DNA of 35,655 bases, taken from NCBI GenBank assembly GCA_001798595.1, contig MGSS01000161.1, forward strand, positions 1-35,655, read 5' to 3'. This document shows positions 7,001-35,655 of the stretch, piece after piece (within the stretch, counting starts at the first letter, position 1; every line of letters begins with the position of its first letter). The notes beneath the pieces were generated by a model. The model saw only the letters and a list, made by a program, of their open reading frames with translations. It had not been told where the DNA came from and made no database searches. Source of the stretch: Deltaproteobacteria bacterium RIFCSPLOWO2_12_FULL_60_19. GTDB lineage: Bacteria > Desulfobacterota > Binatia > UBA9968. The position numbers and the translations under genes were made by a program.

Positions 7001-10000
7001 GAGGGCGACAGCGGGACGGCGAAGTTCGATCTGACGCTGTCGATGGCGGAGGCGGCGGGCTCGCTGAGGGCGACTTTGGAATACAACACCGACCTGTTCG
7101 ACCACGGCACCATCGAACGCATGATCGGCCACTTCCAGACGTTGCTTGAAGGGATTGTCGCGAATCCGGATCAGCGTCTCTCCGAGCTGCCGATACTGAC
7201 CGAGGCGGAACGACATCAACTGCTGGTGGAATGGAACGACACGAAGAGAGATTACCCGAAGGATAAATGCATTCACGAACTGTTCGAAGAGCAGGCGGAG
7301 CGGAGTCCCGACGCAGCGGCGGCGGTCTTTGAGGATACGCAACTTACTTACCGCGAACTGAATCGCCGCGCCAATCAGTTGGCGCGCTATCTGCAAAGGT
7401 TCGGTGTGGGGCCGGAAACGCTGGTCGGCCTCTATGTGAAGCGCTCGCTGGAGATGGTTGTCGGGTTGCTGGGAATTCTCAAGGCCGGCGGGGCGTATGT
7501 GCCGCTGGATGCGAGTTATCCGACGAAGCGGCTTGCGTTCATGTTGCAGGATGCTCACATAGTGGTGTTGTTGACTCAGCGGCGGCTGGTCGAGGGGCTT
7601 TCGAAGGATGGAGTTCATACGATCTGCCTCGATACGGATTGGCAGGCCATCGCCCGGGAGAGCGATGCGAACCCGGTCAGTTGCGCAAAAGGAGACAATC
7701 TCGCCTACGTGATCTATACCTCAGGCTCCACGGGAACGCCCAAGGGAGTTCTGGTTGAGCATCGACAGATTCTCAACTATGTCAAAGGCGTCTCGGATCG
7801 CTTAAACCTGGAGCTCGGCGCAAGCTTTGCTATGGTTCAACCGCTGTCCGTCGATTCGAGCCAGACCGCAATCTTCCCCGCGCTGATTTCAGGGGGCTGT
7901 CTCCATGTCGTATCCGAAGAGAGAGCTTCCGATCGGCATGCCCTTGGAGAATATTTCCGCCGTTTTGCCATCGATCTGCTCAAGATCGCTCCGTCCCATC
8001 TGGCGGCGTTACAGCTTTCGCTTCGCCCCGAGCAACTCTTGCCGCGCCGTTGGCTGGTGCTCGGCGGCGAAGCTTCACGCCGGGATTGGGTGGAGAAGCT
8101 TCAAGCGACGACGTCCTGCTCCATCTTCAACCACTACGGGCCAACGGAAGCTACAGTGGGCGCGCTGACCTACGCGATGGGGAAGGAGCGAAACGGTCAC
8201 AGTTGTTCAACGCTTCCCATAGGACGCCCCATTCCTAATATTCAGGCCTATGTGTTGGACCGCCACTTGCAGCCTGTTCCCATTGGGGTTGCCGGTGAAT
8301 TGCACATCGGCGGTAGTGGTCTGACCCGAGGTTATCTCAACAGGCCTGAGCTGACGAGGGAGAGATTTATCCCAAACCCATTCAGCAATGAGCCGGGGAC
8401 AAGACTCTACAAGACAGGCGACCTTGCCCGCTACCTGCCTGACGGGAACATCGAGTTCCTCGGTCGCGCCGACCACCAGGTTAAGATCCGAGGCTTCCGC
8501 GTTGAGCTGGGGGAGATCGAGGCCGTGCTTGGCCAGCATCCGGATGTGCGGGATGTGGCGGTTTTGGCTCGGGAAGATAGCTCTGGCCGGCAGCGCCTGG
8601 TTGCCTATATCGTCGCCAACAAGAAGCGCGCGCCCACAATCGGCGGCAGGCAACGCTATAGGCTGCCGAACCATATGGCTGTGGCGCAGTTAAATAATTA
8701 CGAGACCGACTATATCTACGAAGAAATATTCGAGCGCCAAGCGTACCTCAAGCACGGGATTGCGATTCGTGAAGGGGATTACGTCTTCGATGTGGGGGCA
8801 AATATCGGCCTGTTTACCATCTTCGTGCGTCAAATGTGTAAAACCGCCAGGGTGTACGCCTTCGAGCCGAATCCGTTTGCCTTTGAGATATTGAACCTGA
8901 ATGCTTCGCTCTATGCTCCCGGCGCGAAACTGTTCGATTGCGGATTATCGAATGAAACCAAGACAGCCTCGTTTACTTTTTTCCCCGGCTTTTCATTGTT
9001 CTCCGGTTTCTATGCCGACCCACAAGTTGAAAAGGAAGTCGTAAAGACATTCATGCTGAATCAGCAGAAAGCCGGCAAGGCTCATATGGCCGAGCTCTTA
9101 GAGCAGGCCGACGGCATACTCGACGAGCGGTTTTCGCCTACCACTCTGTCTGTTCGGTCGAGAACTCTTTCCGCCGTCATGGAGGAGGAGGGCGTTGAAT
9201 GCATAGATCTCTTGAAGATCAACGCGGAAAAGAGCGAGCTGGATGTTCTCAACGGGATCAACGACGTTGACTGGAAAAAGATCAAACAGATTGTGTTGGA
9301 GGTCGATGTTGAGGAAAATCTGCGCGCCATCCTCTCTTTACTGGAGCGGCAGGGCTATGACTTCATCGTGGAGCAGGATCGGCTGCTTGAGAATACTCAG
9401 CTCCGCTACGTTTATGCGATCCGCCCGTCAGAGGGTAAGCGGCTGGAAAGGAATGCGGAGCGGGCGGAGATTGTGCCGATGCTGAGCGATTCTTTGCTTT
9501 CTCCCGACGAACTGAGGCGCTTTTTAAGAGAGAGGGTGCCCGAATATATGGTGCCCTCCGCATTGGTCTTTCTCCAGGCTCTCCCGCTGACTCCTCACGG
9601 CAAGGTGGACCGCCGGGCGCTGCCGGCGCCTGAGCAAGCCAGACCCTTCGACGGAGCTCAGGGCAGGCCCGAGCTGGAAAATTCATACATCGCGCCTCGC
9701 ACGGAGGTGGAGAATGCTCTAGCCGTGATCTGGGCTGAAGTTTTCAAGCTCGATCAGGTGGGCATCCATGACAACTTCTTTGATTTAGGGGGGCACTCCC
9801 TACTGGCCACGCAAGTCATCTCGCGCCTGCGTGAGGCTTTCCACGTGGAGACGCCGCTGCGCGCGCTTTTTGAATCGCCTACGGTGGCCGGCCTTGCCGA
9901 ACAGGTTGAGAAGGCGGGTTTGGCAGGGCCGGAGCCGCAGCCCGGCTCGGGAGACGGCGAGGCGCCCCTGTCCTTCGCCCAGCAGCGACTATGGTTCCTG

Positions 10001-13000
10001 CATCAGCTCGATCCAGGAAGCCCTGTGTATAACGTCGCGCGGGTCATGCGGTTGAGCGGCGCGCTCCATGTGGAAGCGCTGCAAAAATCGCTGAGCGTGA
10101 TCGTCGCGCGCCACGAGATATTGCGCACGAGGATCACCGCCGCGGATGGAAGGTTGCGCCAGATCGTTACCGAGGGTCGGCCGGTCCAGCTTGCGGCGAT
10201 CGATTTGAGTGAGCGGCCGCGCGACCAGCGTGAAGGGAAGATGCATCGCCTCCTCGCCGGTGAAATCCGGCGGCCGTTCGACTTGACGTCAGATTTGTCG
10301 TTTCGGGTCACCCTGCTGCGACTGAGCGAAGAGCAGCACGTCCTGGCCCTGGCGATCCACCACATCTTTTTCGACGGCTGGTCCGAAGCGACCTTGCTCC
10401 GCGAGCTCTCGGCTCTCTACGACGCTTTTTCCCAGGGCAAGGTCCCGTCTTTGCCGGAGCTTTCCATCCAGTATGCGGACTTCGCCGTCTGGCAGCGGCA
10501 ACGGCTACAGGGAAAGGTTCTGGAGGAGCAGATCTCTTACTGGAAAAAGAGGCTCGAGGGCATTCCTGTCCTGGAGCTTTTCACCGACCGTCCGCGTCCC
10601 GCGGTTCAGAGCTACCGCGGCGCGCGGCAATCCTTTGTGCTGCCCAAAGCTCTCAGTGACGGACTTAAGGCGCTCAGTCGTCGTGAAGGCGTAACGTTGT
10701 TCATGACGCTGCTGGCGGCCTTCCAGGCGCTGCTACAGCGCTACACGGGACAGAACGATATTGCCATCGGCTCGCCGATTGCGGGTCGCACCCGCGCTGA
10801 GTTCGAAGAGACGATCGGACTGTTTATCAACACGCTGGTTTTGCGAGGCGACTTGTCGGGCCATCCCAAGTTTACCGAGCTGCTGGCGCGCGCGCGGAAA
10901 ACGGCCTTGGAAGCCTACGAACACCAGGAGCTGCCGTTTGAGAAATTAGTGGAAGAGCTGCATCCCGAGAGAGATCCGAGTCGTTCTCCGCTGTTTCAAG
11001 TGATGTTTGCTTTTGAGAATATGCCGAGAGCTTCCCGAGAGCTGACAGGCCTCAGGGTCAGCCCCATAAAGGTACACACCGGAACCGCAAAATTCGACTT
11101 GACGCTGTCGATCGAGGAAGAGGCGGGCGTGCTGGCGGCAGCCTTGGAATTCAACACCGATCTGTTCGACCACGGCACCATCGAACGCATGATCGGCCAC
11201 TTTCAGACCCTGCTCGACGGCATCGTGGCGAATCCGAATGAGCGTCTCTCCGAGTTGCCGCTGCTGAGCGAAGCCGAACGCCGTCAACTGCTCGTGGAGT
11301 GGAACGATACTGCAAGAGATTTTCCGAAAGACAAGAAGATCCAGCGACTCTTTGAGAAACAGGCGGACCGGACGCCCGACGCGGTCGCGGTAGTTTTTCC
11401 TTCGATGGGCTCAGGACACAGCGAGGACAGTAAGCTCACTTACCTGGAGCTGAATCGCCGGGCCAATCAGTTGGCGCATCGCCTGCGCAAGCTGGGAGTC
11501 GGACCGGAAGCGCGCGTGGGCCTCTACATGGAACGATCGCTCGAGACGGTCGTTGGACTCCTAGCCATTCTCAAGGCAGGAGGAGTTTATGTCCCGCTGG
11601 AGCCCGCCTATCCCGACGCGCGCATCGGTTTTATGATTGAGGACGCGCAGCTATCGGTTCTCTTGACGCAGAGTTCTCTGAGCAAGAGGTTTTCCGGAAG
11701 CGGCGTTCACGTCGTCTGCGTGGACGGAGTTGAAGAACTCGTTCCTGAGCGCGAGAAGAATCCTGCTTGTGAGGTAAAGGCTGATAACGCAGCTTACGTG
11801 ATCTATACCTCCGGCTCGACGGGTGAACCGAAAGGCGTGGTTGTTACGCATAGCTCGCTCGCTCAACACTGCCTTGAGATTCAAAGATACTACGAGCTCA
11901 GGCCGGAGGACCGGGTGCTCCAGTTCGCTTCCCTCAGCTTCGATGTCTCGCTGGAACAGGTTCTTCCGGCGCTCATCAGCGGCGCAACGCTGTTCATGAG
12001 AGGCGCCGAGACGTGGAGCGCGGAAGAATTTTACGAGAAAGCCTCCGAGTTAAGACTCACTGCGGCGAATTTGCCGACGGCGTATTGGCATCAGTGTGTT
12101 CAGGCGCTGGCCGACGCCCCCGGCCTGCCTGCGGCGCACGATCTGAGGCTCATGATCGTCGGCGGCGAGGCGATGTCGCCGCTGAGTTTGAAGCTTTGGC
12201 GGCAGACAGCGATGAAGGGGGTGCGTCTGCTCAATGCGTACGGTCCCACGGAAACGACGATCACCGCGACGACTTTCGAGATCCAGCCGGAACTATCGGA
12301 AGCAGACTTGCACAGCGTTCCCATCGGCCGCCCTCTGGGCAACCGAAAAACCTACGTCTTAGATAAACACCAAAATCCGGTTCCAATCGGCGTCGCAGGC
12401 GAACTGCACATCGGCGGAAGCTGTCTGGCGCGCGGCTATCTGAACCGGCCTGAGCTTACGGCGGAGAAGTTTATTCCCGATCCGTTCAGCGACCAGCCCG
12501 GCGCGCGGCTCTACAAGACCGGAGACCTGGCGCGTTATCTCCCAGACGGCAACATCGAGTTTCTCGGCCGCCTCGACGATCAGGTCAAAATCCGCGGCTA
12601 TCGCATCGAGCCGGGAGAGATCGAGAGCGTGCTGGCACGACACCCGGGAGTGCATGACGCGGTAGTCTTGGCGCGGGACGACACGCCCGCAGATATTTTG
12701 GCCTCACTCAGAATGGAGAAACGTCTGGTGGCTTATGTTGTCCCTGGCCGGGAGCTATCCCCTTCTGTCGGCGAGCTACGCAGTTTTCTCAAAGAGAAGC
12801 TGCCGCCGCACATGGTCCCCTCGGCCTTTGTGATCCTCGATGCTCTCCCTCTCACGCCCAATGGCAAGTTGGACCGCCGCGCGCTGCCGGCGCCTGAGCA
12901 GACGAGACCCGAGCTGGAAAATTCATACATCGCGCCTCGCACGGAGGTTGAAAATGTTCTAGCCGCGATCTGGGCTGAAGTTCTCAAGCTCGATCAGGTC

Positions 13001-13237
13001 GGCATCCACGACAACTTCTTTGACTTAGGCGGCCATTCCCTATTGGCAATTCAGGTCGTCTCCCGAGTGCGCGACGCTCTTCAGGTAGAGCTGCCTCTAC
13101 GGAGCTTCTTCGAGACGCCGACGGTCGCCGGGCTCGCCGCTACCATTCAGCAAGCCAAGGACGGCGGGGTTGCAAGCGCGTCGCCTAAAATAACGCCGGT
13201 TCCCCGGCGGTCGTGCGGGATGAATTCGCCGTTATGA
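4013..13237 (+). CDS. NRPS 1: CAL-PCP / C-A(FkbM methyltransferase)-PCP / C-A-PCP
   Basis: A 3074-residue synthetase. Residues about 1-530 form an acyl-CoA-ligase-like loading domain (LLTSGTTSRPK, LFHIHGLAG, TASGKIRRR), then PCP1 with Ser569 in LGGDSL. C1 follows with active site H760-H-x-x-x-D-G. A1 has an Asp-like code, DSTKVGHVGK, and contains a FkbM-type methyltransferase (DVGANIG from residue 1593) before the A10 lysine at 1864. PCP2 has Ser1929. C2 (H2116-H-x-x-x-D-G), A2 (code DVENIGAITK, unassigned; Glu at position 239 hints at a basic residue) and PCP3 (Ser3009) complete the line. There is no epimerase. Codes were aligned by eye to GrsA. The start has no good ribosome binding site; the ATG at 4019 is equally possible. 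The stop overlaps the start of NRPS 2 (ATGA). Two 24-nt repeat insertions lie in frame. It is cytosolic and needs phosphopantetheinylation, presumably by the PPTase at 20486. Confidence 0.95.
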   Translation: MTMPRAVPAPKSAGSSEARSIHHVLRQWAELTPQAVAIAAPGRAALTYRRLFAHVKSVVEALNAAGIGRGDRVIVALPNGPEMATAFVAVAAGATCVPVNPAYRVTELASHIASLGAKASIVQAGTDSAARAAARSLGVRILELSPIPDAEAGLFILAGDGHTRAARTGFAEPGDAALVLLTSGTTSRPKVVSLTHANLSASADNIRAALALTAADRCLNVMPLFHIHGLAGAVLSSLAAGASVFCAPDFYAPKFLEWMEEFRPTWYTAAPAIHQAILERAASHREVVQRSPLRFIRSCSAPLRVALMAELERKFKAPVIEAYGMTEAAHQIASNPLDRRKAGSVGVAAGPEVAILDEAGDRLPVGQVGEIAIRGANVIQGYDGAAEIDREAFTHGWLRTGDLGYLDGDGYLFITGRLKEIVNRGGEKISPEEIEEALLAHPAVAEAAAFAVFHVTLGEEVAAAVVLREDGAPTEQEIRDFVAERLSDFKVPKRVVVVRELPKTASGKIRRRDLAEQLRLTAEVRAEPSAAYAPPVTPTEKGLVEIWSEVLGIAPIGIHDNFFMLGGDSLRAGQVLSRLRESAQVEISFVSFFATPSVAGLGKAVEAARQGAPDATAPIRRAPRDETPPLSFTQERMWFLEQLAPGNPVYHRSLLFRVAGPLDTAALNESLNGIIRRHAILRTTFGSSGGQPYQVILPNQDTPIHVVDLTTLPEKERRPEAERFAAVEAKRPFDLGNGPLLRAIVLRLGDEERLLVLAMHHMVFDGWSDAVFLRELSALYETFRQGKAPSLPELPIQYADFAVWQREWLQGEVLERQLSYWKRQLSAVPVLELPADRPRPAIQTFRGAAQSFTLPEALSDELKALGRREGTTLFMTLLAAFQTLLHRYTGQDDIAVGSPIAGRTRAEFEGLIGLFINTLVLRDDLSGDPKFKELMGRVRDATLAAYQHQELPFEKLVEALRPERNPSRSPLFQVMFVLQNMPRTSLELPGLTVTPLEGDSGTAKFDLTLSMAEAAGSLRATLEYNTDLFDHGTIERMIGHFQTLLEGIVANPDQRLSELPILTEAERHQLLVEWNDTKRDYPKDKCIHELFEEQAERSPDAAAAVFEDTQLTYRELNRRANQLARYLQRFGVGPETLVGLYVKRSLEMVVGLLGILKAGGAYVPLDASYPTKRLAFMLQDAHIVVLLTQRRLVEGLSKDGVHTICLDTDWQAIARESDANPVSCAKGDNLAYVIYTSGSTGTPKGVLVEHRQILNYVKGVSDRLNLELGASFAMVQPLSVDSSQTAIFPALISGGCLHVVSEERASDRHALGEYFRRFAIDLLKIAPSHLAALQLSLRPEQLLPRRWLVLGGEASRRDWVEKLQATTSCSIFNHYGPTEATVGALTYAMGKERNGHSCSTLPIGRPIPNIQAYVLDRHLQPVPIGVAGELHIGGSGLTRGYLNRPELTRERFIPNPFSNEPGTRLYKTGDLARYLPDGNIEFLGRADHQVKIRGFRVELGEIEAVLGQHPDVRDVAVLAREDSSGRQRLVAYIVANKKRAPTIGGRQRYRLPNHMAVAQLNNYETDYIYEEIFERQAYLKHGIAIREGDYVFDVGANIGLFTIFVRQMCKTARVYAFEPNPFAFEILNLNASLYAPGAKLFDCGLSNETKTASFTFFPGFSLFSGFYADPQVEKEVVKTFMLNQQKAGKAHMAELLEQADGILDERFSPTTLSVRSRTLSAVMEEEGVECIDLLKINAEKSELDVLNGINDVDWKKIKQIVLEVDVEENLRAILSLLERQGYDFIVEQDRLLENTQLRYVYAIRPSEGKRLERNAERAEIVPMLSDSLLSPDELRRFLRERVPEYMVPSALVFLQALPLTPHGKVDRRALPAPEQARPFDGAQGRPELENSYIAPRTEVENALAVIWAEVFKLDQVGIHDNFFDLGGHSLLATQVISRLREAFHVETPLRALFESPTVAGLAEQVEKAGLAGPEPQPGSGDGEAPLSFAQQRLWFLHQLDPGSPVYNVARVMRLSGALHVEALQKSLSVIVARHEILRTRITAADGRLRQIVTEGRPVQLAAIDLSERPRDQREGKMHRLLAGEIRRPFDLTSDLSFRVTLLRLSEEQHVLALAIHHIFFDGWSEATLLRELSALYDAFSQGKVPSLPELSIQYADFAVWQRQRLQGKVLEEQISYWKKRLEGIPVLELFTDRPRPAVQSYRGARQSFVLPKALSDGLKALSRREGVTLFMTLLAAFQALLQRYTGQNDIAIGSPIAGRTRAEFEETIGLFINTLVLRGDLSGHPKFTELLARARKTALEAYEHQELPFEKLVEELHPERDPSRSPLFQVMFAFENMPRASRELTGLRVSPIKVHTGTAKFDLTLSIEEEAGVLAAALEFNTDLFDHGTIERMIGHFQTLLDGIVANPNERLSELPLLSEAERRQLLVEWNDTARDFPKDKKIQRLFEKQADRTPDAVAVVFPSMGSGHSEDSKLTYLELNRRANQLAHRLRKLGVGPEARVGLYMERSLETVVGLLAILKAGGVYVPLEPAYPDARIGFMIEDAQLSVLLTQSSLSKRFSGSGVHVVCVDGVEELVPEREKNPACEVKADNAAYVIYTSGSTGEPKGVVVTHSSLAQHCLEIQRYYELRPEDRVLQFASLSFDVSLEQVLPALISGATLFMRGAETWSAEEFYEKASELRLTAANLPTAYWHQCVQALADAPGLPAAHDLRLMIVGGEAMSPLSLKLWRQTAMKGVRLLNAYGPTETTITATTFEIQPELSEADLHSVPIGRPLGNRKTYVLDKHQNPVPIGVAGELHIGGSCLARGYLNRPELTAEKFIPDPFSDQPGARLYKTGDLARYLPDGNIEFLGRLDDQVKIRGYRIEPGEIESVLARHPGVHDAVVLARDDTPADILASLRMEKRLVAYVVPGRELSPSVGELRSFLKEKLPPHMVPSAFVILDALPLTPNGKLDRRALPAPEQTRPELENSYIAPRTEVENVLAAIWAEVLKLDQVGIHDNFFDLGGHSLLAIQVVSRVRDALQVELPLRSFFETPTVAGLAATIQQAKDGGVASASPKITPVPRRSCGMNSPL
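8641..9440 (+). other. FkbM-type methyltransferase domain embedded in the first amino-acid A domain
   Basis: Between A8 (VKIRGFRVELGEIE) and A10 (PLTPHGKVDRR) of module 2 the A domain is interrupted by about 270 residues. They start at RYRLPNHMAVAQLNNYETDY and carry the SAM-binding loop DVGANIGLFTIF (Asp1593), AFEPNP and a late LLKINAEKSELDVLNG segment. This is the layout of FkbM (Methyltransf_21) enzymes, mostly O-methyltransferases, rather than the usual embedded N-methyltransferase. Base composition drops: three 60-base lines counted here have 42-50% GC against about 65% for a line in the loading domain, which fits acquisition as a cassette. Embedded FkbM domains of very similar sequence occur in cyanobacterial NRPSs, as I recall. 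Confidence 0.85.
9644..9667 (+). repeat. 24-nt in-frame palindromic-repeat insertion in NRPS 1 (A1-PCP2 linker)
   Basis: The linker reads ...EQAR-PFDGAQGR-PELENS, while the equivalent linker of the next module (near 12897) reads ...EQTR-PELENS. The extra eight residues are coded by exactly 24 bases beginning CCCTTCGACGGAGCTCAGGG. This is the element found in the leader at 3902. The flanks AGA CCC and AGG CCC look like a short direct duplication. Confidence 0.7.
11399..11422 (+). repeat. 24-nt in-frame palindromic-repeat insertion in NRPS 1 (start of A2)
   Basis: Where module 2 reads VFEDTQLTY and NRPS 2 reads VCEDRQLTY, module 3 reads VF-PSMGSGHS-EDSKLTY. The eight extra residues come from exactly 24 bases starting CCTTCGATGGGCTCAGGACA. 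It is a variant of the leader repeat, read in a different codon phase from the copy at 9644. Confidence 0.65.
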
Positions 13238-16200
13238 AGATTCCCGGCGATTCCGATGTCTTTCCCACCTCCTTTGCCCAGCAGCGGCTGTGGTTTCTGG
13301 ATCGGTTGGAGCCCGGCGGCTCGACCTATAACGTCGCTCAAGCTTTTAGGCTCAGCGGCTGGCTTCAGCAACCCGCGCTGGAGCGCAGCCTGAATGAAAT
13401 CGCGCGCCGCCATGAAATCCTACGGACTACTTTTGTCGAGATGGAGGGGGCGCCTGTACAGCTCATCGGCCCGCCGCGGGATCAGCCGCTAAAAGTTATC
13501 AGCCTCTTGCAGCTTCCCGCGGGCGATCGTGAGACCGAAGCCGGGCGATTGATCGAAGAGGAGGCGCGCCGGCCTTTTGACTTGGCCAAAGGCCCTCTTT
13601 TTTGCGCCACCCTCCTCAGGATCGAGGAAGAGGAGCATATTCTGCTGCTGGCGATGCACCACGTCGTCTCGGACGGCTGGTCGATGGGAGTGCTCTACCG
13701 AGAGCTGTCGTCGCTCTATGAGAGTTTCTCCCAGGGCAAGGCGCCGTCATTGGCGGAGCTGCCCATTCAGTATGCCGACTTTGCCGTTTGGCAGCGCCAA
13801 TGGCTACAGGGAAAAGTTCTAGAGGAGCAGCTCTCTTACTGGAAGCAACAGCTCGCGGACGTCCAGCTTCTTGAGCTGCCGACCGACCATCCGCGTCCCG
13901 CGGTTCAGAGCTACCGTGGAGCGCGGCAAGCTTTTGCGCTGCCCAAAGCTCTCTCCGACGGGCTTAAGACCCTAAACCGCCGCGAAGGGGCGACCCTGTT
14001 CATGACGCTGCTGGCGGCTTTTCAGACTCTGCTGCATCGCTACACCGGTCAGGATGACATTGTGGTGGGCTCCCCCGTCGCGGGACGCAACCGCGCCGAG
14101 GTCGAGGGGCTCATCGGCTTCTTCGTCAACACGCTGGTTTTGCGAGGTGACTTGTCGGGCGAGCCCAAGTTCACCGAGCTGATGGCGCGCGTGCGCAAAG
14201 CAGCCCTGGACGCCTACGAACATCAAGAGCTGCCGTTTGAGAAGCTGGTGGAGGAGTTGCAACCGGAGCGCGACTTAAGCCGCAATCCGCTTTTTCAGGT
14301 GATGTTTGCGCTTAACAATCTCCCCAGCCAGGCGTGGAGACTGCCGGGTCTCGATGTGGAGCCTGTAGAGGTGCCGAGCGACGTAGTCAAGTTCGATCTG
14401 AGCTTGGGCATGTTTGAAGAAGGGAAAGGACTGAGAGGGTTGTTGGGTTACAACCGCGACTTGTTTGACGCGGGCACCATCCAACGCATGATCGGCCACT
14501 TCCAGACCTTGCTCGAAGGCATCGCGGCGAATCCGGACCGGCGTCTTTCCGAGTTGCCGATACTGACCGGCGCGGAGCGGCGTCAACTGCTGGTGGAGTG
14601 GAACGACACGAAGCGAGATTATCCGAAGGACAAATGCATTCACGAGCTATTCGAGGAGCAGGCGGCGCGGACGCCGGATGCGGTGGCGGTGGTATGCGAG
14701 GACCGACAACTCACGTACCGGGAATTAAATCGCCGGGCCAACCAGTTGGCGCATCACCTGCGGAGCTTGGGAGCGGGGCGGGAAACGCTCGTCGGCATTT
14801 GCATGACGCGTTCTCAGGAGATGGTCGTCGGACTTCTAGGAATCCTCAAGGCCGGCGGGGCGTACGTGGCGCTGGACCCGGATTATCCCAAGGCCCGGTT
14901 GGCCTTCATGATGGAAGACGCGCCGCTCTCGATGCTTTTGACTGGGCAACGGCTGGTCGAGAGAATTCCCCAGTCTGGCGCGCGCCTCATCTGCCAGGAC
15001 CGAGATTGGAGCGCGGTCTCCAGGCAAAGCGAAGCGAACCCGGTCACCGGCGTCAGGCCCGACAACTTAGCCTATGTCGCCTACACTTCAGGGAGCACCG
15101 GGCGGCCGAAGGGCGCGATGATCGAGCACGGAAGCGTGGTCAACTACCTTTGTTGGGTCAACGAGAGTTTGCTTGGTGATCGGGTGGAGAGCGTGCCGGT
15201 GGTCACCAAGCCGGTGTTCGACGCCTCTCTCAAGCAACTATTTGCTCCGCTCCTGCGCGGCCGCAAGGTGTGGGTGTTGTCAGAGAACATGGCGCTCCAA
15301 CCTGCCGCCTTGGTGCACGCGCTGGGCACGCAGACCGAAGTCGGCCTCAACTGTGTGCCGTCGTTGTGGAGCGCGGCGCTCGACGCAATCGACTGCGGCG
15401 AGGCCGCGATGCCCGTCGAGAGCATCGCAAGTCTCTTGATCGGCGGCGAGCAGCTCAGCAGGGAGCTGATCCGCAGATCCTTCGCCGCGCTGCCGCATGT
15501 GCGGATCTGGAACCTCTATGGCCCGACGGAGGCAACCGCGAACGCAAGCGTTGCCGAAATCATTTCTGACCGGGACCTGACCATCGGCCGCCCTATCGCC
15601 AATACGCGGATCTATATTCTCGATGCCCGTTTGAAACCCGTTCCCATCGGCGTCCCCGGCGAGCTGCACATCGGTGGCGCGGGCTTGGCGCGCGGCTATC
15701 TGAACCGCCCGGAACGCACGGCCGACAAGTTCATCCCCGATCCTTTCCGTGACGAGCCGGGGGCGCGGTTTTATAAGACAGGCGACCTGGCGCGTTATCG
15801 GCCCGACGGCAACATCGAGTTTCTTGGCCGCCTCGACGATCAGGTAAAGATCCGCGGCTTTCGCATCGAGCCGGGAGAGATCGAGGCGGCGTTGAACCAA
15901 CACCCGTTGGTGCGGGACAGCATCGTCGTTGCCCGGGACGACGATGCGCAACACAAACGTCTAATTGCCTACGTCGTGCCGAACCCAGGGTCTTTTCCGA
16001 CAGCCGGCGAACTTCGAAGTTTCCTGAAATCCACCCTCCCCGACTACATGACGCCGGCCGCTTTTGTGACGCTGGAAGCGCTGCCCCTCACTCCCAACGG
16101 AAAAGTGAACCGCACAGCGCTCTCTCAGGCGCTCGACGACCGCGACGAGCGCCGGGACGCGTTCACGCCGCCGCGTTCTCCGGTGGAGAGCGCGCTTGCC

Positions 16201-19200
16201 GAAATCTTTGCCGCCGTCCTTGGCGTGGAACGGGTCGGCGCGCACGACAACTTCTTCGATCTGGGCGGCCATTCCCTGTTGGCGGCGCAAGCCGTCTCCC
16301 GCCTGCGCGCAGCCCTGCAGGCGGAGATTTCGTTGCGTGCGCTCTTCGAATCGCCGACGGTAGCGGGCCTGGCGGAGCACGTTGAAACGGCGCTCCGGGC
16401 GGCGCGCGGCCAGGAGCCGGCGCCGCCGCTTGAACCGACGCTGCGGCGTGGCCCATTGCCGCTTTCCTTCGGCCAGCAGCGGCTGTGGTTTTTGGATCAG
16501 TTGGAGCCGGGCAATCCTACTTACAACATGCGTGCCGCCTTTCGCCTTGCCGGTCCCCTCCATCTCACGGCGCTGGAGCGAAGTCTCAACGAGATCGTGT
16601 GCCGCCACGAAGCCCTGCGCACGACCTTCGCCGTGGCCGATGGGCAGCCGTTTCAGGTCATCGCTTCGGAGTTGGCTGTAGGGCTGCCGGTGGCGAATTT
16701 GCAGGACTATCCCGAGGGCGAGCGGAAAGCCCGGGCGGAGCGGTTGGTCGCCGAAGAAGCTCGACGGCCGTTCGATCTGGCGCGCGGGCCTCTGCTGCGC
16801 TCCCAGGTGTTGCGGCTGGGAGCGGAGGAACACATCCTGGTCATGACCATGCACCACAGCGTCTCAGACGGATGGTCCATGGGGGTGTTCTTCCGCGAAC
16901 TCTCAGCGCTTTACCAAGCCTTTTCAACCGAAAAGCCGTCTCCGTTGCCTGATCTGCCTATCCAATACGCGGACTTTGCCGTTTGGCAGAGGGAGTGGCT
17001 GGAGAGGAAAGTGCAGGCGAGTCAGCTGTCCTACTGGAGACGGCAGCTCGCGGGCGCGCCGCCTGTGCTGGAATTGCCGACCGACCATCCCCGACCGCCG
17101 GCTCAGACGTACTTTGGAGCGAAGGAGTCCTTGATCCTTTCCAAGGACCTGACGGAGGCTCTCAAGGCGTTGAGCCGTCGGGAGGGGGCAACGCTGTTCA
17201 TGACGCTGCTGGCGGCCTTTCAGCTCCTGCTCAGCCGTTACAGCGGGCAGGATGACATTGTCGTCGGCGCGCCCATAGCCGGTAGAAACCGAATGGAGAT
17301 CGAAGGGCTGATCGGATTTTTCCTGAACAACCTGGCGCTCCGCACGGACCTTTCGGGCAACCCGAGTTTCAGGGAATTGTTGGGCCGGGTGCGCCGGGTG
17401 GCTCTGGGAGCTTATACTCACCAGGACTTGCCCTTCGAGAAGCTGCTGGAAGAGTTGCGGCCCGCGCGAGACCTCAGCCGCACGCCGCTGTTTCAAGTTT
17501 ATTTTAATATGAACGACGCCGAAGGCCGGCTGGAACTCCCCGGGCTGACGGCGGAGCCCATGTCGTCCCTTGAGCCTCTGTCAAAATTCGATTTCACGCT
17601 CTATGTCAGAGAGCAAGCCGGCAAGATCCGGTTCAATCTTGTCTACAACGTCGATATCTTTGAGCGCGACCGAATGGTCGAGCTGTTGGGTCAGCTCGAA
17701 CATCTGCTGTCGCAGATCGCGGAGAACCCGGACCGAAGGATCGGGAACTTTTCTCTGGTCACTCCCGCCGCCGAGGGCGGCTTGCCAAATCCCGCTCGAC
17801 GCCTTGATGACGCCTGGAAAGGCGCCGTCCACACACAGTTTACCCGGCAGGCGGACAGATTTCCGCAGCGGCCTGCGGTCGTAGATCGTTGGGGAAGCTG
17901 GAGCTATCGAGAAACCGATGCCCGCGGCAACCGCATCGCCCGCTACTTGCGCGCGAGCGGCATCGGGCCGCGCGACCTCGTTGCCATCTACGGCCATCGC
18001 AGCGCTCCGCTGGTCTGGGCCGTGTTGGGCGTTCTCAAGGCGGGCGCGGCGTTTGTGATTTTAGATCCCGCGTACCCGGCAGCGCGGCTGGTCGAGTGTT
18101 TGCGGGCGGCGAAGCCCCGTGGCTGGTTTCAGATCGCAGCGGCCGGGCCGCTTCCCGACGCGCTGGAGAAATTTATCACCGTCTCCTCCATTCGATGCCG
18201 CCTTGAGCTTTCCGCCGACCCCGCCGCCGCGTCACGCGACCCTCTCACCGCTTATTCCATCGACGATCCCGGGATCGCCGTAGGGCCGGATGACTTAGCC
18301 TATGTCGCTTTCACCTCCGGTTCCACCGGCCGCCCCAAAGGCATTCTGGGCCGCCACGGTCCCCTGTCGCATTTTCTGCCGTGGCAAGAAACGGCATTCC
18401 ATCTCAGCGGGTCAGATCGCTTCAGCATGCTATCGGGACTGTCGCATGACCCGCTGCAGCGGGATATCTTCACGCCGCTGTGGCTGGGGGCGACGATATT
18501 GATTCCCGATCCGGAAATCATCGGCACACCCGGGCTGGCCCGCTGGATGGCCGAGGCGCAGGTGACCTTCGCGCATCTTACGCCCGCCGTGGCGGAGCTG
18601 CTGACCGAGACCGCCGCTCCTGACTGCCGCATCACATCACTGCGTTACGCATTTTTCGTCGGCGACAAGTTGACGCGGCGAGATGTAGCCAGGCTTCGAC
18701 GCCTCGCCCCGGAGGCCGTCTGCATCGCCTCCTACGGCTCGACGGAAACACAACGGGCAGTGGGCTACCATATGGTTTCTCCAGCGCCGGAACCGTCGAA
18801 GAGCCGGGAGCAATCGGTTTATCCGGTGGGGCGTGGCGTGGAAGATGCGCAGCTCCTGGTGTTGACCGCGGAACAACAGTTGGCCGGCGTGGGTGAGCTC
18901 GGCGAGATTCACCTCCGCAGCCCTCACCTCGCCCAGGGATACCTCGGAGACGAGGAACTCACGCGGGCGCGGTTTCTGACCAATCCGTTCACGGGTCTCG
19001 ACGGCGACCGTCTTTACAAAACCGGCGATATGGGACGCTTCTTGCCCGACGGCAGCGTCGAGTTCGTTGGCCGCGCCGACCGGCAGGTGAAAATCCGCGG
19101 CTTCCGCATCGAGCCGGGAGAGATCGAGGGGGCGCTGTGTCAACACGCTGCGGTGCGTGAGGCTTTGGTTGTGGCGCACGAGGATACGCCCGGCCAGAGA

Positions 19201-20445
19201 CGCTTGGTTGCGTATATTGTTCCCCGGCAGGAGCGGGCGCCGGCCGCCGATGATCTGCGCGGTTTTGCCGCATCCAAGCTGCCGGCGTACATGGCGCCGT
19301 CAGCCTTTGTGTTTCTGGACGCTCTGCCGCTTACTCCCAACGGCAAGGTCGATCGTCGCGCGCTCCCGCCTCCCGACCGAGCGAAGGTTGACGGCCGTCC
19401 GGGCTACGCGGCGCCCACTCCCGGAACGATTGAGCCACAGTTGGCGGAGATTTGGGAAGAGCTGCTGGGGATTCATCCAATTGGGACTCAGGACAATTTT
19501 TTCGAGCTGGGAGGCCACTCCTTGCTCGCGGTCCGGATGGCGCACCGGATCGAGCAGAGCTGCGGCGAGAGGGTTCCGCTCGCTACCTTGCTTGCCGGGC
19601 CGACGATCGAGCAGCTGGCGCAGGCGCTGGTGAGGCAGCGACACGATGGAGAAAGATCACTGCTTGTGAAAGTTCAGCCGGAGGGCGCCAAGCCGCCTTT
19701 TTTCTACCTGCATGGAGATCTTCAAGCGGGAGGCTTTTACTGCCTGAACCTGGCTAAGTATTTAGGCGAGGATCGGCCGTTCTACGCGCTCGCCCCGCAC
19801 GGGCTCAACGGCGTTTCCGCTCCCGAGACCGTCGAGGCGATGGCGGCGTCTTATATTCAAATGGCGCGCGCCGTCCAGCCCGAAGGCCCGTATTTTCTGG
19901 GAGGCTATTGCAGGGGCGGCATTGTGGCTTTCGAGGTGGCGCGGCAGTTGGAGCGGCAGGGACAGCGGGTAGGTCTCGTCGTGGTAGTTGCGGCCGGGGC
20001 GCGTAATACTCTTCCTCGAAGATTGCTCAACGGCATGGTATCGCGCGCCGGTTCGTGGCTCGGGCTCGAACCGCGCCAGAGATGGCGCCTGTTTCTCGGA
20101 ATACGCGCATGGGGACGTCGCGTGCGGCGAATTTTCCAAGCCGACCACTATCGAGTCGATCAGACGGTAACGTCAGCGCAAACAGGTCGCGATCCCGCTG
20201 TCGCCCGGCTGCACAATCGAGCGCTCGGCGGGTATGTCTCAAAGCCGTACTCGGGACGGGTGGCGCTTCTCTGGCCGGCCGAAGAACCCTTCGACCGCCG
20301 TCGAAATCCAACCTTCGGATGGGGCCGGGTCACTTCTCAACTGGAGATCCGAACCGTGCCCGGCGGCCATATCACCTGCATCACAGAGCATCTGAAAAGC
20401 CTGGCCGAACACATGAAGGATTTGTTGGAACAGGTCGAGCGATGA
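13234..20445 (+). CDS. NRPS 2: C-A-PCP / C-A(Lys2-like)-PCP-TE
   Basis: A 2403-residue synthetase. The ATG at 13234 overlaps the NRPS 1 stop (ATGA), implying translational coupling; a GTG at 13213 is an alternative. C3 starts at once (SFAQQRLWFL, active site H142-H-x-x-x-D-G). It is followed by A3 (code DAKNLGLANK, not assignable; Lys at 239 hints at an acidic substrate) and PCP4 with Ser1014. C4 (H1207-H) is followed by A4 of the Lys2 type: SHDPLQRDIFTPL, HLTPA, FFVGD and YGSTETQRAV, with code DPRHFVSRAK against DPRHFVMRAK recalled for Lys2, which suggests 2-aminoadipate. PCP5 has Ser2096. The terminal thioesterase has Cys2226 in GGYCRGG instead of Ser, and His2379 in PGGHITC. The usual Asp after the next strand is replaced (VVVVAAGAR). 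Release by hydrolysis or cyclisation cannot be told. No epimerase and no reductase domain. Confidence 0.95.
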   Translation: MKIPGDSDVFPTSFAQQRLWFLDRLEPGGSTYNVAQAFRLSGWLQQPALERSLNEIARRHEILRTTFVEMEGAPVQLIGPPRDQPLKVISLLQLPAGDRETEAGRLIEEEARRPFDLAKGPLFCATLLRIEEEEHILLLAMHHVVSDGWSMGVLYRELSSLYESFSQGKAPSLAELPIQYADFAVWQRQWLQGKVLEEQLSYWKQQLADVQLLELPTDHPRPAVQSYRGARQAFALPKALSDGLKTLNRREGATLFMTLLAAFQTLLHRYTGQDDIVVGSPVAGRNRAEVEGLIGFFVNTLVLRGDLSGEPKFTELMARVRKAALDAYEHQELPFEKLVEELQPERDLSRNPLFQVMFALNNLPSQAWRLPGLDVEPVEVPSDVVKFDLSLGMFEEGKGLRGLLGYNRDLFDAGTIQRMIGHFQTLLEGIAANPDRRLSELPILTGAERRQLLVEWNDTKRDYPKDKCIHELFEEQAARTPDAVAVVCEDRQLTYRELNRRANQLAHHLRSLGAGRETLVGICMTRSQEMVVGLLGILKAGGAYVALDPDYPKARLAFMMEDAPLSMLLTGQRLVERIPQSGARLICQDRDWSAVSRQSEANPVTGVRPDNLAYVAYTSGSTGRPKGAMIEHGSVVNYLCWVNESLLGDRVESVPVVTKPVFDASLKQLFAPLLRGRKVWVLSENMALQPAALVHALGTQTEVGLNCVPSLWSAALDAIDCGEAAMPVESIASLLIGGEQLSRELIRRSFAALPHVRIWNLYGPTEATANASVAEIISDRDLTIGRPIANTRIYILDARLKPVPIGVPGELHIGGAGLARGYLNRPERTADKFIPDPFRDEPGARFYKTGDLARYRPDGNIEFLGRLDDQVKIRGFRIEPGEIEAALNQHPLVRDSIVVARDDDAQHKRLIAYVVPNPGSFPTAGELRSFLKSTLPDYMTPAAFVTLEALPLTPNGKVNRTALSQALDDRDERRDAFTPPRSPVESALAEIFAAVLGVERVGAHDNFFDLGGHSLLAAQAVSRLRAALQAEISLRALFESPTVAGLAEHVETALRAARGQEPAPPLEPTLRRGPLPLSFGQQRLWFLDQLEPGNPTYNMRAAFRLAGPLHLTALERSLNEIVCRHEALRTTFAVADGQPFQVIASELAVGLPVANLQDYPEGERKARAERLVAEEARRPFDLARGPLLRSQVLRLGAEEHILVMTMHHSVSDGWSMGVFFRELSALYQAFSTEKPSPLPDLPIQYADFAVWQREWLERKVQASQLSYWRRQLAGAPPVLELPTDHPRPPAQTYFGAKESLILSKDLTEALKALSRREGATLFMTLLAAFQLLLSRYSGQDDIVVGAPIAGRNRMEIEGLIGFFLNNLALRTDLSGNPSFRELLGRVRRVALGAYTHQDLPFEKLLEELRPARDLSRTPLFQVYFNMNDAEGRLELPGLTAEPMSSLEPLSKFDFTLYVREQAGKIRFNLVYNVDIFERDRMVELLGQLEHLLSQIAENPDRRIGNFSLVTPAAEGGLPNPARRLDDAWKGAVHTQFTRQADRFPQRPAVVDRWGSWSYRETDARGNRIARYLRASGIGPRDLVAIYGHRSAPLVWAVLGVLKAGAAFVILDPAYPAARLVECLRAAKPRGWFQIAAAGPLPDALEKFITVSSIRCRLELSADPAAASRDPLTAYSIDDPGIAVGPDDLAYVAFTSGSTGRPKGILGRHGPLSHFLPWQETAFHLSGSDRFSMLSGLSHDPLQRDIFTPLWLGATILIPDPEIIGTPGLARWMAEAQVTFAHLTPAVAELLTETAAPDCRITSLRYAFFVGDKLTRRDVARLRRLAPEAVCIASYGSTETQRAVGYHMVSPAPEPSKSREQSVYPVGRGVEDAQLLVLTAEQQLAGVGELGEIHLRSPHLAQGYLGDEELTRARFLTNPFTGLDGDRLYKTGDMGRFLPDGSVEFVGRADRQVKIRGFRIEPGEIEGALCQHAAVREALVVAHEDTPGQRRLVAYIVPRQERAPAADDLRGFAASKLPAYMAPSAFVFLDALPLTPNGKVDRRALPPPDRAKVDGRPGYAAPTPGTIEPQLAEIWEELLGIHPIGTQDNFFELGGHSLLAVRMAHRIEQSCGERVPLATLLAGPTIEQLAQALVRQRHDGERSLLVKVQPEGAKPPFFYLHGDLQAGGFYCLNLAKYLGEDRPFYALAPHGLNGVSAPETVEAMAASYIQMARAVQPEGPYFLGGYCRGGIVAFEVARQLERQGQRVGLVVVVAAGARNTLPRRLLNGMVSRAGSWLGLEPRQRWRLFLGIRAWGRRVRRIFQADHYRVDQTVTSAQTGRDPAVARLHNRALGGYVSKPYSGRVALLWPAEEPFDRRRNPTFGWGRVTSQLEIRTVPGGHITCITEHLKSLAEHMKDLLEQVER

Positions 20446-30676: not shown

Positions 30677-32020
30677 TTATTGTTGAAACGGGGTAGGCAG
30701 GCGGCTGAAAAAGGCGCGCCCGCCCATCCGGTTCATTCGCTGCATCATTTTTTTCATCTCGAGAAACTGCTTTATCAGGCGATTGACGTCGGTGACGGTG
30801 GTGCCGCTCCCCTGGGCGATTCTTTTCCGCCGGCTGCCGTTTAAGACCGCCGGATTGCGCCGCTCTTCCAGCGTCATCGAGTTGATGATCGCGTCGACCC
30901 GCTTGATCTCCTTCTCCGCCTGTCCCAGATCGACCTTCGGCGCGAGCTTTCGCGCTCCCGGCACCATGTCCAGCAGGTCGCCGATCGAGCCCATCTTTTT
31001 GATCTGTCTCAACTGCGCCTGGAAGTCCTCCAACGAGAACTGCCCCTTGCGCATCTGCTTTTCCAGCCGCTCGGCCTCTTTGGCCTCGAAGGCCTGCTGC
31101 GCCTTCTCGACCAGCGAGAGGACATCGCCCATGCCGAGGATTCTCGCCGCCAGGCGATCGGGATAAAACGGCTCGAGCGCGTCCGGCTTTTCGCCGGTGC
31201 CGCAGAAAAGAATCGGCTTGCCGGCGATCTCGCGCATCGACAGCGCGGCGCCGCCGCGCGCGTCGCCGTCCGTCTTGGTCAGGATAATGCCGGTCAAGTC
31301 GAGCCACTTGCCGAACCCTTCGGCCTGATTGACGGCGTCCTGACCGGTCATCGCGTCCGCGACCAAGAGCGCGTGCTGGGGATGGACCGCCGCGACGACC
31401 GCCTTAAGCTCTTCCATCAGCTCGTCGTCGATATGCAGTCTGCCGGCGGTGTCGATCAGCACGACGTCGCAAAACTGCCGCGTCGCTTCTTCCAGCGCCG
31501 CTTTGCAGATCGCGACCGCGGGCGTGTCGGGCTGGGAGTCGTACACCGGGATGTCGAGGCTCTGCCCCAGGGTCTTCAACTGCTCGATGGCGGCGGGGCG
31601 GTAGATATCCGCCGGCACCAGGTAAGGCTTCCGTTTTTTCTCGTTCTTGAGCCAGCGCGCCAGCTTGGCGACGGTGGTCGTCTTGCCGCTGCCCTGGAGG
31701 CCCACCAGCATGAGCGTCTGCGGCGGCGCGCCTTTCAGCTCCAGCTCCGAGCGCTCGCCACCCAACAGGCGCGTCAGCTCGTCGTGGACGATCTTGATGA
31801 ACTGCTGCTCGGGGCTCAGGCTGGCTAAAACTTCTTCGCCGAGCGCTTTGGCCTTGACCGATTCGAGGAAGCTCTTGACGACTTTGAAATGGACGTCGGC
31901 TTCGAGCAGGGCGAGGCGCACTTCGCGCAGCGCCTCTTCGATGTGGCTTTCCCTGATCTTTCCCTGACCCCTCAGTTTCTTGAAGGTCAACTCCAGTTTG
32001 TCGGTCAAGGATTCGAACAT
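30677..32020 (-). CDS. ffh: Signal recognition particle protein Ffh (SRP54)
   Basis: A 447-residue GTPase that binds SRP RNA and signal sequences of membrane proteins and docks with FtsY. The N domain is followed by the G domain with GLQGSGKTT (107-115), DTAGR, TKTDGDARGGAALS and GMGDVLSLVE. The methionine-rich M domain has KMGSIGDLLDMVPG and ends with MKKMMQRMNRMGGRA. Length is normal. It is the first gene of the ffh-rpsP-khpA-rimM operon, with its own promoter in the spacer after the groEL terminator. Confidence 0.96.
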   Translation of the reverse strand: MFESLTDKLELTFKKLRGQGKIRESHIEEALREVRLALLEADVHFKVVKSFLESVKAKALGEEVLASLSPEQQFIKIVHDELTRLLGGERSELELKGAPPQTLMLVGLQGSGKTTTVAKLARWLKNEKKRKPYLVPADIYRPAAIEQLKTLGQSLDIPVYDSQPDTPAVAICKAALEEATRQFCDVVLIDTAGRLHIDDELMEELKAVVAAVHPQHALLVADAMTGQDAVNQAEGFGKWLDLTGIILTKTDGDARGGAALSMREIAGKPILFCGTGEKPDALEPFYPDRLAARILGMGDVLSLVEKAQQAFEAKEAERLEKQMRKGQFSLEDFQAQLRQIKKMGSIGDLLDMVPGARKLAPKVDLGQAEKEIKRVDAIINSMTLEERRNPAVLNGSRRKRIAQGSGTTVTDVNRLIKQFLEMKKMMQRMNRMGGRAFFSRLPTPFQQ

Positions 32021-32166: not shown

Positions 32167-33837
<1,671 letters not shown>

Positions 33838-34128
33838 TTACTTCTCGATCACGCCGAGGATGTCTTCCTCGCGCATAATGCTATGTTCCTCTCCGTCGAT
33901 GTTGATTTCGCTGCCGGAATACTTGCCGAAGAGGACGCGATCGTTAACCTTGACATCCAACGGAATGATCTTGCCGTCTTCACTGACTTTTCCCTTGCCC
34001 ACGGCGACGACCTTCCCCTCCTGGGGTTTTTCCTTGGCTGTATCAGGGATGATGATGCCTCCCTTGGTCTTCTCTTCCTCCTCGATCCTCTTAACGATAA
34101 CACGATCCTGTAAAGGCCTGATCTTCAC
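33838..34128 (-). CDS. groES: Co-chaperonin GroES (Hsp10)
   Basis: A 96-residue lid protein of the GroEL ring. The start [20 protein letters not shown], the mobile loop [14 protein letters not shown] (22-35) and [11 protein letters not shown] are all standard. It starts with GTG; AGGAGG lies six bases upstream. First gene of groES-groEL. Confidence 0.97.
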
Positions 34129-34325: not shown

Positions 34326-34601
34326 CTATCTTTTCTGCTTGCGCAGCTCCTCCTCGCGGTATTTCCGGTAGAGCACGTCCCACTCCCGGCTGCCGATCGG
34401 AACCGGGCGCGAGAGCGATTGGATCTTTTGCCGCACGACGTCGTCGATCCGCTCCTCGTGCCCGAAAAAACCTTCCAGCACGCTTTTGGTCTCGCTCAAA
34501 GCCCGCGCCTCGCTCGGAAAATCCGTCAGGTCCTGCTTCCAAAGCCCGTCGATAATCAGGTGAGCCAGGTGGGAGATGCGATTTTCGGAGAGGCGGCTCA
34601 T
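34326..34601 (-). CDS. DUF507 family protein (second copy)
   Basis: A 91-residue helical protein beginning MSRLSENRISHLAHLIIDGL and ending in a charged EELRKQKR tail. The DUF507 pattern is an N-terminal helix starting with a short [KR]-[IL] segment, then a helix around VLEGFFGHEERID and a C-terminal DVLYRKYREEE. It overlaps its upstream neighbour, also DUF507, by ATGA, so the two are translationally coupled and probably form a heteromeric pair. The family has no established function. The ATG at 34601 is chosen because of the coupling overlap; longer in-frame extensions run antisense to sense in the first DUF507 gene and are not credible. Confidence 0.75.
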   Translation of the reverse strand: MSRLSENRISHLAHLIIDGLWKQDLTDFPSEARALSETKSVLEGFFGHEERIDDVVRQKIQSLSRPVPIGSREWDVLYRKYREEELRKQKR

Positions 34602-34882
34602 AGCACAAACCCTTTTTTTTGCGCCAGCTTCTGCTTGATCAAGAGGAACATCTTGTACGGGTCGGCCTCCCCGGCTTGTTTGACCTCCCCCGCGTGGCTG
34701 GCGAGCATCCGGCGCGCCTCCTCCTCGATGGCCTCCTCTTCCTGAAAGTTCCGGGTGACAATTTCGCCGATCTTCGCCCGAACCTTGGCTGCGTCGGCTT
34801 TGAGAACGATCAACTCCTTGGCCCGATAAGCGCGCCAAAGCTGGTCCGCCAGCCGGTCAACCTGTTCAGGCTTGATCTTCAT
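34598..34882 (-). CDS. DUF507 family protein (first copy)
   Basis: A 94-residue protein, MKIKPEQVDRLADQLWRAY at the start and DPYKMFLLIKQKLAQKKGFVL at the end, typical of DUF507. It is nearly all helix and strongly charged (FQEEEAIEEEARRML), with no membrane segment. There is no clear ribosome binding site: the bases just upstream are instead a DnaA-box-like TTTTCCACA. Function unknown. It heads a two-gene unit with the second DUF507 gene and precedes groES-groEL, separated by about 200 bases. Confidence 0.8.
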   Translation of the reverse strand: MKIKPEQVDRLADQLWRAYRAKELIVLKADAAKVRAKIGEIVTRNFQEEEAIEEEARRMLASHAGEVKQAGEADPYKMFLLIKQKLAQKKGFVL

Positions 34883-34885
34883 AGT

Positions 34886-35124
34886 TGTGGAAAACTCTGT
34901 GGATAACGTTGCGGAAGACCTGTGAAAAGGTCCGGCGCAAGCTGTGTGGTTCCGGCCACTTCATACTGTGCCCCGCGGACGATGTCAATAACTCCGACCG
35001 CCGTCGTTTTTAAACGCCGAAGGCGAGAAAGTACTTGTGCTGACGGGACTTTTTTGCGAATATGCGGAAGGCATGGACCTCCGAAAGAGACGCGCGGCTG
35101 TGCACAACGGGGGCTCTATTCACA
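34886..35124. other. Cluster of DnaA-box-like 9-mers (candidate replication origin or DnaA-regulated region)
   Basis: TGTGGAAAA (34886-34894) and TGTGGATAA (34898-34906) both fit the DnaA box TTWTNCACA on the minus strand, 12 bases apart. Near matches with one mismatch follow: TGTGAAAAG (34921-34929), TGTGCACAA (35099-35107) and, on the plus strand, CTATTCACA (35116-35124). An AT-richer stretch with GTTTTTAAACG and GACTTTTTTGCGAATA lies between. Genes point away on both sides: DUF507, groESL and ffh leftward, LD-carboxypeptidase rightward. No dnaA or dnaN is in the window, so an origin is only a hypothesis. Confidence 0.45.
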
Positions 35125-35147
35125 GGCCCCGACATCGGAGACGGTGA

Positions 35148-35655
35148 GTGCGGCCACAAAAACCGGCGGGCCTGAAGCCGGGGGACAAGATCGGCGTGGC
35201 CGCTCCGGCAGGCGCGGTCGATGAGGGGCGGCTCCGGGCGGGGGTTGAGGCGATCGAGCGGGCGGGCTTCGTCGTCGAGCTTGCCGACGGGGCGCTGGAG
35301 CGCAAAGGCTACCTGGCCGGGGACTCGGCGAAGCGGGCCAAGGCGTTGCAGGATTTTTTCATCCGCGCCGACATCGCGGCGATATTCTGCGCGCGCGGCG
35401 GCTTCGGCTCGGTGCAACTGCTGCCGCTGTTGGATATCGAGGCGATCCGTCGCCACCCCAAGATATTCGTCGGCTACAGCGACCTGAGCATCGTTTTGAA
35501 TTGGCTCCGGCAGCGCTGCGGGATGGTGGCGTTTCACGGCCCCATGACGGCGATGGAGCTGGCGCGCGGCCTGGAGGGGCGCAGCGCGGATTTTTTTTGG
35601 GGCATGCTCACCGGGCGGATGCGCCGTTGGCGGCTCGACCTGGAAGAGGCGATAC
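35148..35655 (+). CDS. ldcA: LD-carboxypeptidase (peptidase S66 family), 3' truncated by window end
   Basis: The frame starts at GTG 35148 with GGAG seven bases upstream and runs open to the edge (169 codons). It shows LKPGDKIGVAAPAGAVDEG at the N-terminus, AIFCARGGFGSVQLLPLLD (79-97) and VGYSDLSIVLNWL (108-120), with nucleophile Ser111 in GYSD. This is the pattern of S66 serine peptidases (LdcA, MccF), with the catalytic Glu and His expected in the missing part. LdcA cleaves the terminal D-Ala from murein tetrapeptides in the cytosol during cell-wall recycling; MccF relatives cleave microcin C-type acyl-sulfamoyl adenylates. With only the N-terminal half visible, LdcA is more likely but MccF cannot be ruled out. 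Confidence 0.85.
   Translation, partial: MRPQKPAGLKPGDKIGVAAPAGAVDEGRLRAGVEAIERAGFVVELADGALERKGYLAGDSAKRAKALQDFFIRADIAAIFCARGGFGSVQLLPLLDIEAIRRHPKIFVGYSDLSIVLNWLRQRCGMVAFHGPMTAMELARGLEGRSADFFWGMLTGRMRRWRLDLEEAI

Follow-up and report, generated by a model that had tools for sequence, protein, structure and literature searches.

A family-conserved spacer with DnaA boxes between divergent DUF507 and LD-carboxypeptidase genes: a candidate DnaA-controlled regulatory region

For E. coli asnC, a DnaA box reportedly lies within a transcribed region, at the asnC terminator region, where it is proposed to stop RNA polymerase. Schaefer and Messer (1988, 1989) reportedly described this DnaA-box block to RNA polymerase, and the title of the 1989 paper is said to mention an active orientation. 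Passages of two other papers also describe DnaA blocking RNA polymerase inside transcribed regions (PMC11317965, PMC10950094). The double-box sites of E. coli, for example upstream of purH, are pairs of DnaA 9-mers near gene starts, separated by 2 or 3 bp, a spacing given in the same passages as the one preferred by E. coli DnaA (PMC11317965). The datA and DARS regions carry DnaA boxes outside oriC, according to excerpts of PMC10950094 and PMC11317965, and in the E. coli his leader boxes with two mismatches each lie in a structured leader transcript, according to part of PMC10989985.

The spacer that we describe here, between a DUF507 gene and an LD-carboxypeptidase gene, can be set against these systems as far as the excerpts portray them. 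It shares the closely spaced 9-mer pair near a gene start with the purH-type sites, but the genes are others, and here the pair sits at the start codon, with an opposed box on the divergent gene as its mirror image. As for asnC, we propose a stop of RNA polymerase within a transcribed region, but in two divergent leaders, known from sequence alone, instead of at a terminator region. It lies outside oriC like datA and DARS, whose layout differs, and it resembles the his leader in that the DUF507 boxes would lie in the leader transcript, here as a near-consensus direct pair. In the open library that we searched we found no literature joining a DnaA box with LD-carboxypeptidase or with groESL, and none on a DnaA box cluster with sda. 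What is established is the sequence itself, how it is conserved and laid out, and that it is unique in the genome by two search patterns; we consider it probable, though well short of certain, that the spacer is a family-conserved, DnaA-controlled divergent regulatory region, with promoters, transcription starts, DnaA binding, repression and coupling to replication all predicted from the DNA.

The window, i.e., the whole stretch of 35,655 nucleotides that was analyzed, is the entire contig C161 of a 4.19-Mb draft genome in 162 contigs. The genes around the spacer are:

30677 to 32020, minus strand: ffh (SRP54), PF00448; order conserved wherever the stretch extends that far
32167 to 33810, minus strand: groEL, PF00118; order conserved
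33838 to 34128, minus strand: groES, PF00166, downstream of the DUF507 pair; order conserved
34326 to 34601, minus strand: DUF507 C-half protein, PF04368 positions 95-180; start read from the sequence
34598 to 34882, minus strand: DUF507 N-half protein, 94 aa, PF04368 positions 1-93, E 5.7e-13
35148 to 35654, plus strand: N-terminal part of an S66 LD-carboxypeptidase (LDC), PF02016, E 5.9e-35; runs off the contig end

Gene directions therefore diverge at this spot, DUF507 on the minus strand and LDC on the plus strand, just as the preliminary description of this DNA had it. Read from the sequence, the ATG of the DUF507 C-half overlaps the stop of the N-half (ATGA, 34598-34601). DUF507 is thus two overlapping genes here but one chain of 183 residues in Aquifex, whose structure was described as a new fold of unknown function when reported, according to the excerpted text of PMC10439177; in one relative (G040) the profile match extends over positions 2-179 with one internal stop. 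Between 34000 and 35655 there were zero Rfam matches at E ≤ 0.1. Elsewhere in the window, a 3074-aa nonribosomal peptide synthetase frame with condensation, AMP-binding and carrier domains and an FkbM methyltransferase domain occupies 4013-13237 (plus strand), and is followed by a second giant frame at 13213-20445.

The DnaA boxes and near matches that matter for the argument are:

34886 to 34894, minus strand: DnaA box 2, TTTTCCACA, one mismatch, fits TTWTNCACA; conservation 0.83
34898 to 34906, minus strand: DnaA box 1, an exact TTATCCACA, the first of the two in the double box of the DUF507 leader; top 9-column window (0.92) of the 23-genome alignment
35099 to 35107: two-mismatch match, TTGTGCACA
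35116 to 35124, plus strand: LDC-side box position, CTATTCACA, two mismatches, sense to LDC transcription; conservation 0.90

Gaps of 3 bp separate box 2 from box 1 on one side and from the DUF507 ATG, which follows it, on the other. The two consensus boxes 12 bp apart that had been reported hold up in position and spacing, both on the minus strand, but only the first is exact, the second being a relaxed match. The three near matches are present as well, with two mismatches each, at 34983-34991, 35099-35107 and 35116-35124; the first is unlikely to be a DnaA box because it overlaps the conserved TTGAC of a promoter-like block described below. At the position aligned with 35116-35124, 15 of the 23 family genomes have an exact TTATCCACA, and the decayed copy in the source genome suggests weaker control of LDC there.

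TTWTNCACA occurs at four sites in the window, two of them in this spacer, where 0.77 are expected and one of 100 shuffles reached four; matches with up to two mismatches number 56 against 38.2 expected. In the whole 4.19-Mb draft the direct double box occurs once by two search patterns (reversed control 0 for one of them), and the single TTWTCCACA has 40 occurrences (reversed control 27). The source genome's DnaA carries the C-terminal DNA-binding domain PF08299.

The arrangement is conserved. A match to the DUF507 N-half was found in 41 of 58 genomes (23 of the 25 members of the same family, f1, the one genome of f2, and 17 genomes at class level); the complete genome G028 and eight other f3 genomes gave no DUF507 match. 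Of 19 named relatives of the DUF507 protein, all from metagenome assemblies, 16 are labelled Deltaproteobacteria and one each Proteobacteria, Syntrophobacter and Candidatus Binatia. In all 23 family genomes, which span 13 genera, the double-box position abuts the DUF507 start. Taking the best sense-direction match within a range, the first box differs from TTATCCACA by no mismatch in 15 genomes, one in 7 and two in 1; the second by one in 16, two in 6 and three in 1; and the opposed box on the LDC side by none in 15, one in 6, two in 1 and three in 1, so that 22 of 23 have the latter at two mismatches or fewer. The spacer within the double box is 3 bp in 17 genomes and 2 bp in 6, matching the double-box rule for E. 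coli DnaA as given in passages of PMC11317965. The five best non-overlapping 9-column windows in the 23 f1 spacers comprise the three boxes together with a TTGAC element and a CAAAAA block, which mark the two promoter-like blocks described below. The f2 locus (L014), which was left out of the alignment, mismatch counts and distances, also has the box pair at DUF507, with two mismatches in the second box.

An exact double box followed by ATGAA is found in 12 of 148 class genomes, once in each, all of them f1 and, by position, at the DUF507 start. A relaxed pattern gave 29 double boxes in 26 genomes (reversed control 1), 18 of them at DUF507, and missed the DUF507 site in six of the 24 family or f2 genomes (G002, G003, G016, G017, G024 and G025). 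At ten class-level N-half starts, some of them approximate, no box was present within 400 bp at one mismatch, which argues that the link between boxes and DUF507 is lineage-specific; locus L135 is anchored on the C-half, and once it is set aside 10 of the 20 class-level genomes have an N-half match. One of the ten boxless loci, L030, also has a divergent LDC. The neighbor reads by eye as a divergent LDC frame in all 24 f1 and f2 loci, and a tblastn search recovered LDC from every one of 26 loci; a motif search for LDC, which found it in 4 of 24 family or f2 loci, was too strict. DUF507 is followed by groES in 25 of the 26 loci, the last (L058) ending first; this gene-order search used five queries, and several of the 26 loci are the same genome from two collections. 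Other matches are scattered through the spacers on both strands, at -46 in L015 and L024, -154 in L023 and -95 in L017 and L018, the last two loci also providing an example of antisense matches (TTATCCACC). Matches to TTCTCCACA and TTATGCACA about 290 and 310 bp upstream of DUF507 in several relatives were discounted as boxes on a judgement by eye, which took them for the LDC ribosome site (GGAG) and first codons.

The remaining 11 relaxed double boxes lie away from DUF507: one by dnaA in G015, two near dnaB, three next to murJ and five elsewhere (G003, G007, G017, G024, G033). The dnaB sites, direct double boxes of the TTATGCACA type at L198:1501-1521 and L189:1501-1521 in two g6 genomes, lie about 230 bp upstream of dnaB (by Pfam for L198) and are consistent with a DnaA regulon. 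Those near murJ (named by Pfam at one locus), in three g7 genomes (L180, L195 and L181), are separated from the end of the murJ frame by about 100 bp; a tatC frame follows beyond murJ in L180 (Pfam) and L195 (by eye), while the L181 contig ends first.

The headline reading of the preliminary description was that the spacer might be a replication origin, at which DnaA would bind the boxes and open the DNA. DnaA boxes in both orientations between divergent genes fit such a reading, as does a local change in GC skew at about 34.9 kb, but this change tracks gene direction, with groES, groEL and ffh all on one strand. The AT-rich pockets are real: AT reaches 60% in the richest 50-mer of 34841-35150, compared with 39% on average for the window, which ranks this 50-mer in the top 0.74% for the window but below the 74% reached upstream of dnaA and the 64% of the dnaA-dnaN gap. 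Where an origin would have a cluster of boxes, the spacer has two good boxes and a decayed one. The description was right that dnaA is not nearby: dnaA and dnaN are on another contig, C37 (98 kb), whose cumulative skew minimum at 55.0 kb coincides with the 3′ end of dnaA (~53.9-55.2 kb). This minimum, to which the description had looked for a decision, is also near dnaA in two relatives, at 121.5 kb in G003 (dnaA ~120.1-121.5 kb) and at 55.5 kb on contig C5 of G015 (dnaA ~54.0-55.3 kb), and all three minima fall at dnaA-dnaN. In G003 the skew changes from -0.030 over the 100 kb before dnaA to +0.045 over the 45 kb after it. Around DUF507 in the same genome there is no sustained flip: the two sides give -0.026 and -0.015 at 100 kb, and at 20 kb -0.005 and +0.004. 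Nor is there an inversion in G016 (-0.008 and -0.012 over 100 kb), though there the dnaA contig has its minimum at 44 kb, away from dnaA at 163 kb. Because the double boxes of both G003 and G016 are weakened, this test transfers to the source genome only within limits; the source contig is itself short, with the spacer only 0.75 kb from its end. In G015, contig C12 (118 kb) does have its cumulative minimum at the DUF507 locus, but this contig ends 7.6 kb further on. G028, sampled as 15 stretches of 20 kb, gave noisy skew and was not used.

Boxes also flank dnaA itself. Upstream of dnaA the source genome has a perfect inverted pair of TTATCCACA, and the same place has two exact boxes in five of seven other family genomes (L035, L037, L038, L039, L042); L040 has a single altered box there and L036 a pair of altered ones. 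We found no literature on a Binatota replication origin in the open library searched, and a tblastn search of 11 loci gave neither dnaA nor dnaN. In a class-level relative (G050, locus L044) eight exact TTATCCACA boxes lie just downstream of dnaA in an origin-like layout, four of them in tandem at 11-bp steps. The spacer is unlikely to be the replication start site of the chromosome, and we regard the origin reading as very improbable.

The geometry of the spacer is described by two further features, both recognized by their conservation:

34960 to 34988, minus strand: promoter-like block toward DUF507, TTGACA-N17-TATGAA
35035 to 35063, plus strand: promoter-like block toward LDC, TTGTGC-N17-GAATAT, with a conserved T-tract in its spacer

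TTGAC is present at the DUF507 promoter-like position in 24 of 24 family or f2 loci. A promoter consensus scan detected neither block (none found, 0.3 expected), and both putative promoters therefore rest on conservation. Taking again the best sense-direction match in a range, the distance from inferred start to box is 44.7 on average on the DUF507 side (sd 2.4, range 41-49, 23 genomes) and 41.6 on the LDC side (sd 4.9, 22 genomes, 17 at 40-47 and 5 at 32-34), i.e., the boxes are in sense orientation and mostly follow the inferred start site on either side at 40-49 bp. Short leaders alone could explain such tight distances.

The distance between the boxes across the spacer varies more (sd 10.0, range 194-230). 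This bears on whether the spacer is a titration or nucleotide-exchange site, similar to datA or DARS, that sets the free or active DnaA pool while gene control is secondary. The retention of the double box and the opposed box across 13 genera and the presence of a sole direct double box in the source genome by two patterns would fit such a site, but the conserved boxes number only three, and their positions track the promoters more closely than each other, a difference to be expected in part, since several variable pieces add up in the box-box distance. We therefore judge a titration site unlikely. The same distances bear on repression by a DnaA loop that would join the two box sites across both promoters. 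In 22 of 23 genomes both promoter-like blocks do lie between boxes of two mismatches or fewer, but the box-box distance has no helical phasing (Rayleigh p ~0.35, n = 22), and at one mismatch the f2 genome has boxes on the DUF507 side only, which leaves looping improbable.

The double box also occupies the position where a ribosome would enter DUF507. The Shine-Dalgarno match there never exceeds 4 nt in 24 of 24 loci, whereas groES has 6-7 nt in 18 of the 19 loci with a pattern hit (the L011 hit with 3 nt and a second L007 hit with 0 nt look off-target). This could mean that DnaA acts on the mRNA, with the sense leader boxes serving as RNA sites for attenuation or for keeping ribosomes out, and excerpts of PMC10989985 present a DnaA-RNA attenuation model for the his leader of E. 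coli. But ffh in the window is also without a match above 4 nt and the DUF507 C-half has only 4 nt, so a weak ribosome site is not special to DUF507; the rule of 2-3 bp spacing applies to DNA sites; and direct DnaA-RNA binding was not conclusively shown according to the seen part of the his paper (PMC10989985). An action on mRNA thus has a low likelihood.

For the favored reading, a DnaA-controlled divergent regulatory region, we propose the following mechanism. Two back-to-back sigma-70-like promoters would serve LDC rightward and, leftward, the DUF507 pair followed by groES, groEL and ffh. Cooperative binding of DnaA to the double box of the DUF507 leader and to the opposed box of the LDC leader would then put a roadblock before elongating RNA polymerase in both. 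The footprint of RNA polymerase at a promoter does not reach boxes at about +45; with the boxes outside this footprint and in sense orientation, an elongation roadblock is favored over simple promoter occlusion. Abundant DnaA would then lower expression, coupling the DUF507 and LDC genes to DnaA activity. Alternatively, a different protein recognizing the same 9-mer may bind the boxes. Autoregulated promoters had been offered as the alternative to an origin: DnaA-controlled divergent promoters are indeed what conservation and geometry favor, but autoregulation of dnaA does not apply here because dnaA lies elsewhere. The link to the replication cycle perhaps extends to the chaperone genes as well; groES has its own strong ribosome site and a gap upstream.

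A more ambitious version, which we put forward as a doubtful conjecture, is a mirrored DnaA leader switch that is family-wide in these uncultured bacteria (probably Binatia). Sense DnaA boxes at about +45 of two divergent operons, with the double box replacing the ribosome-binding site of DUF507, would let DnaA control both elongation and ribosome entry, so that peptidoglycan recycling, DUF507 proteins and chaperonin supply would be tied to replication initiation.

A pair of boxes in a divergent gap does not by itself justify calling an origin, a call that takes long-range skew and the context of dnaA. What the spacer does offer is a concrete candidate for a DnaA target outside oriC, in a lineage represented here by metagenome assemblies only, and a first regulatory clue for DUF507.
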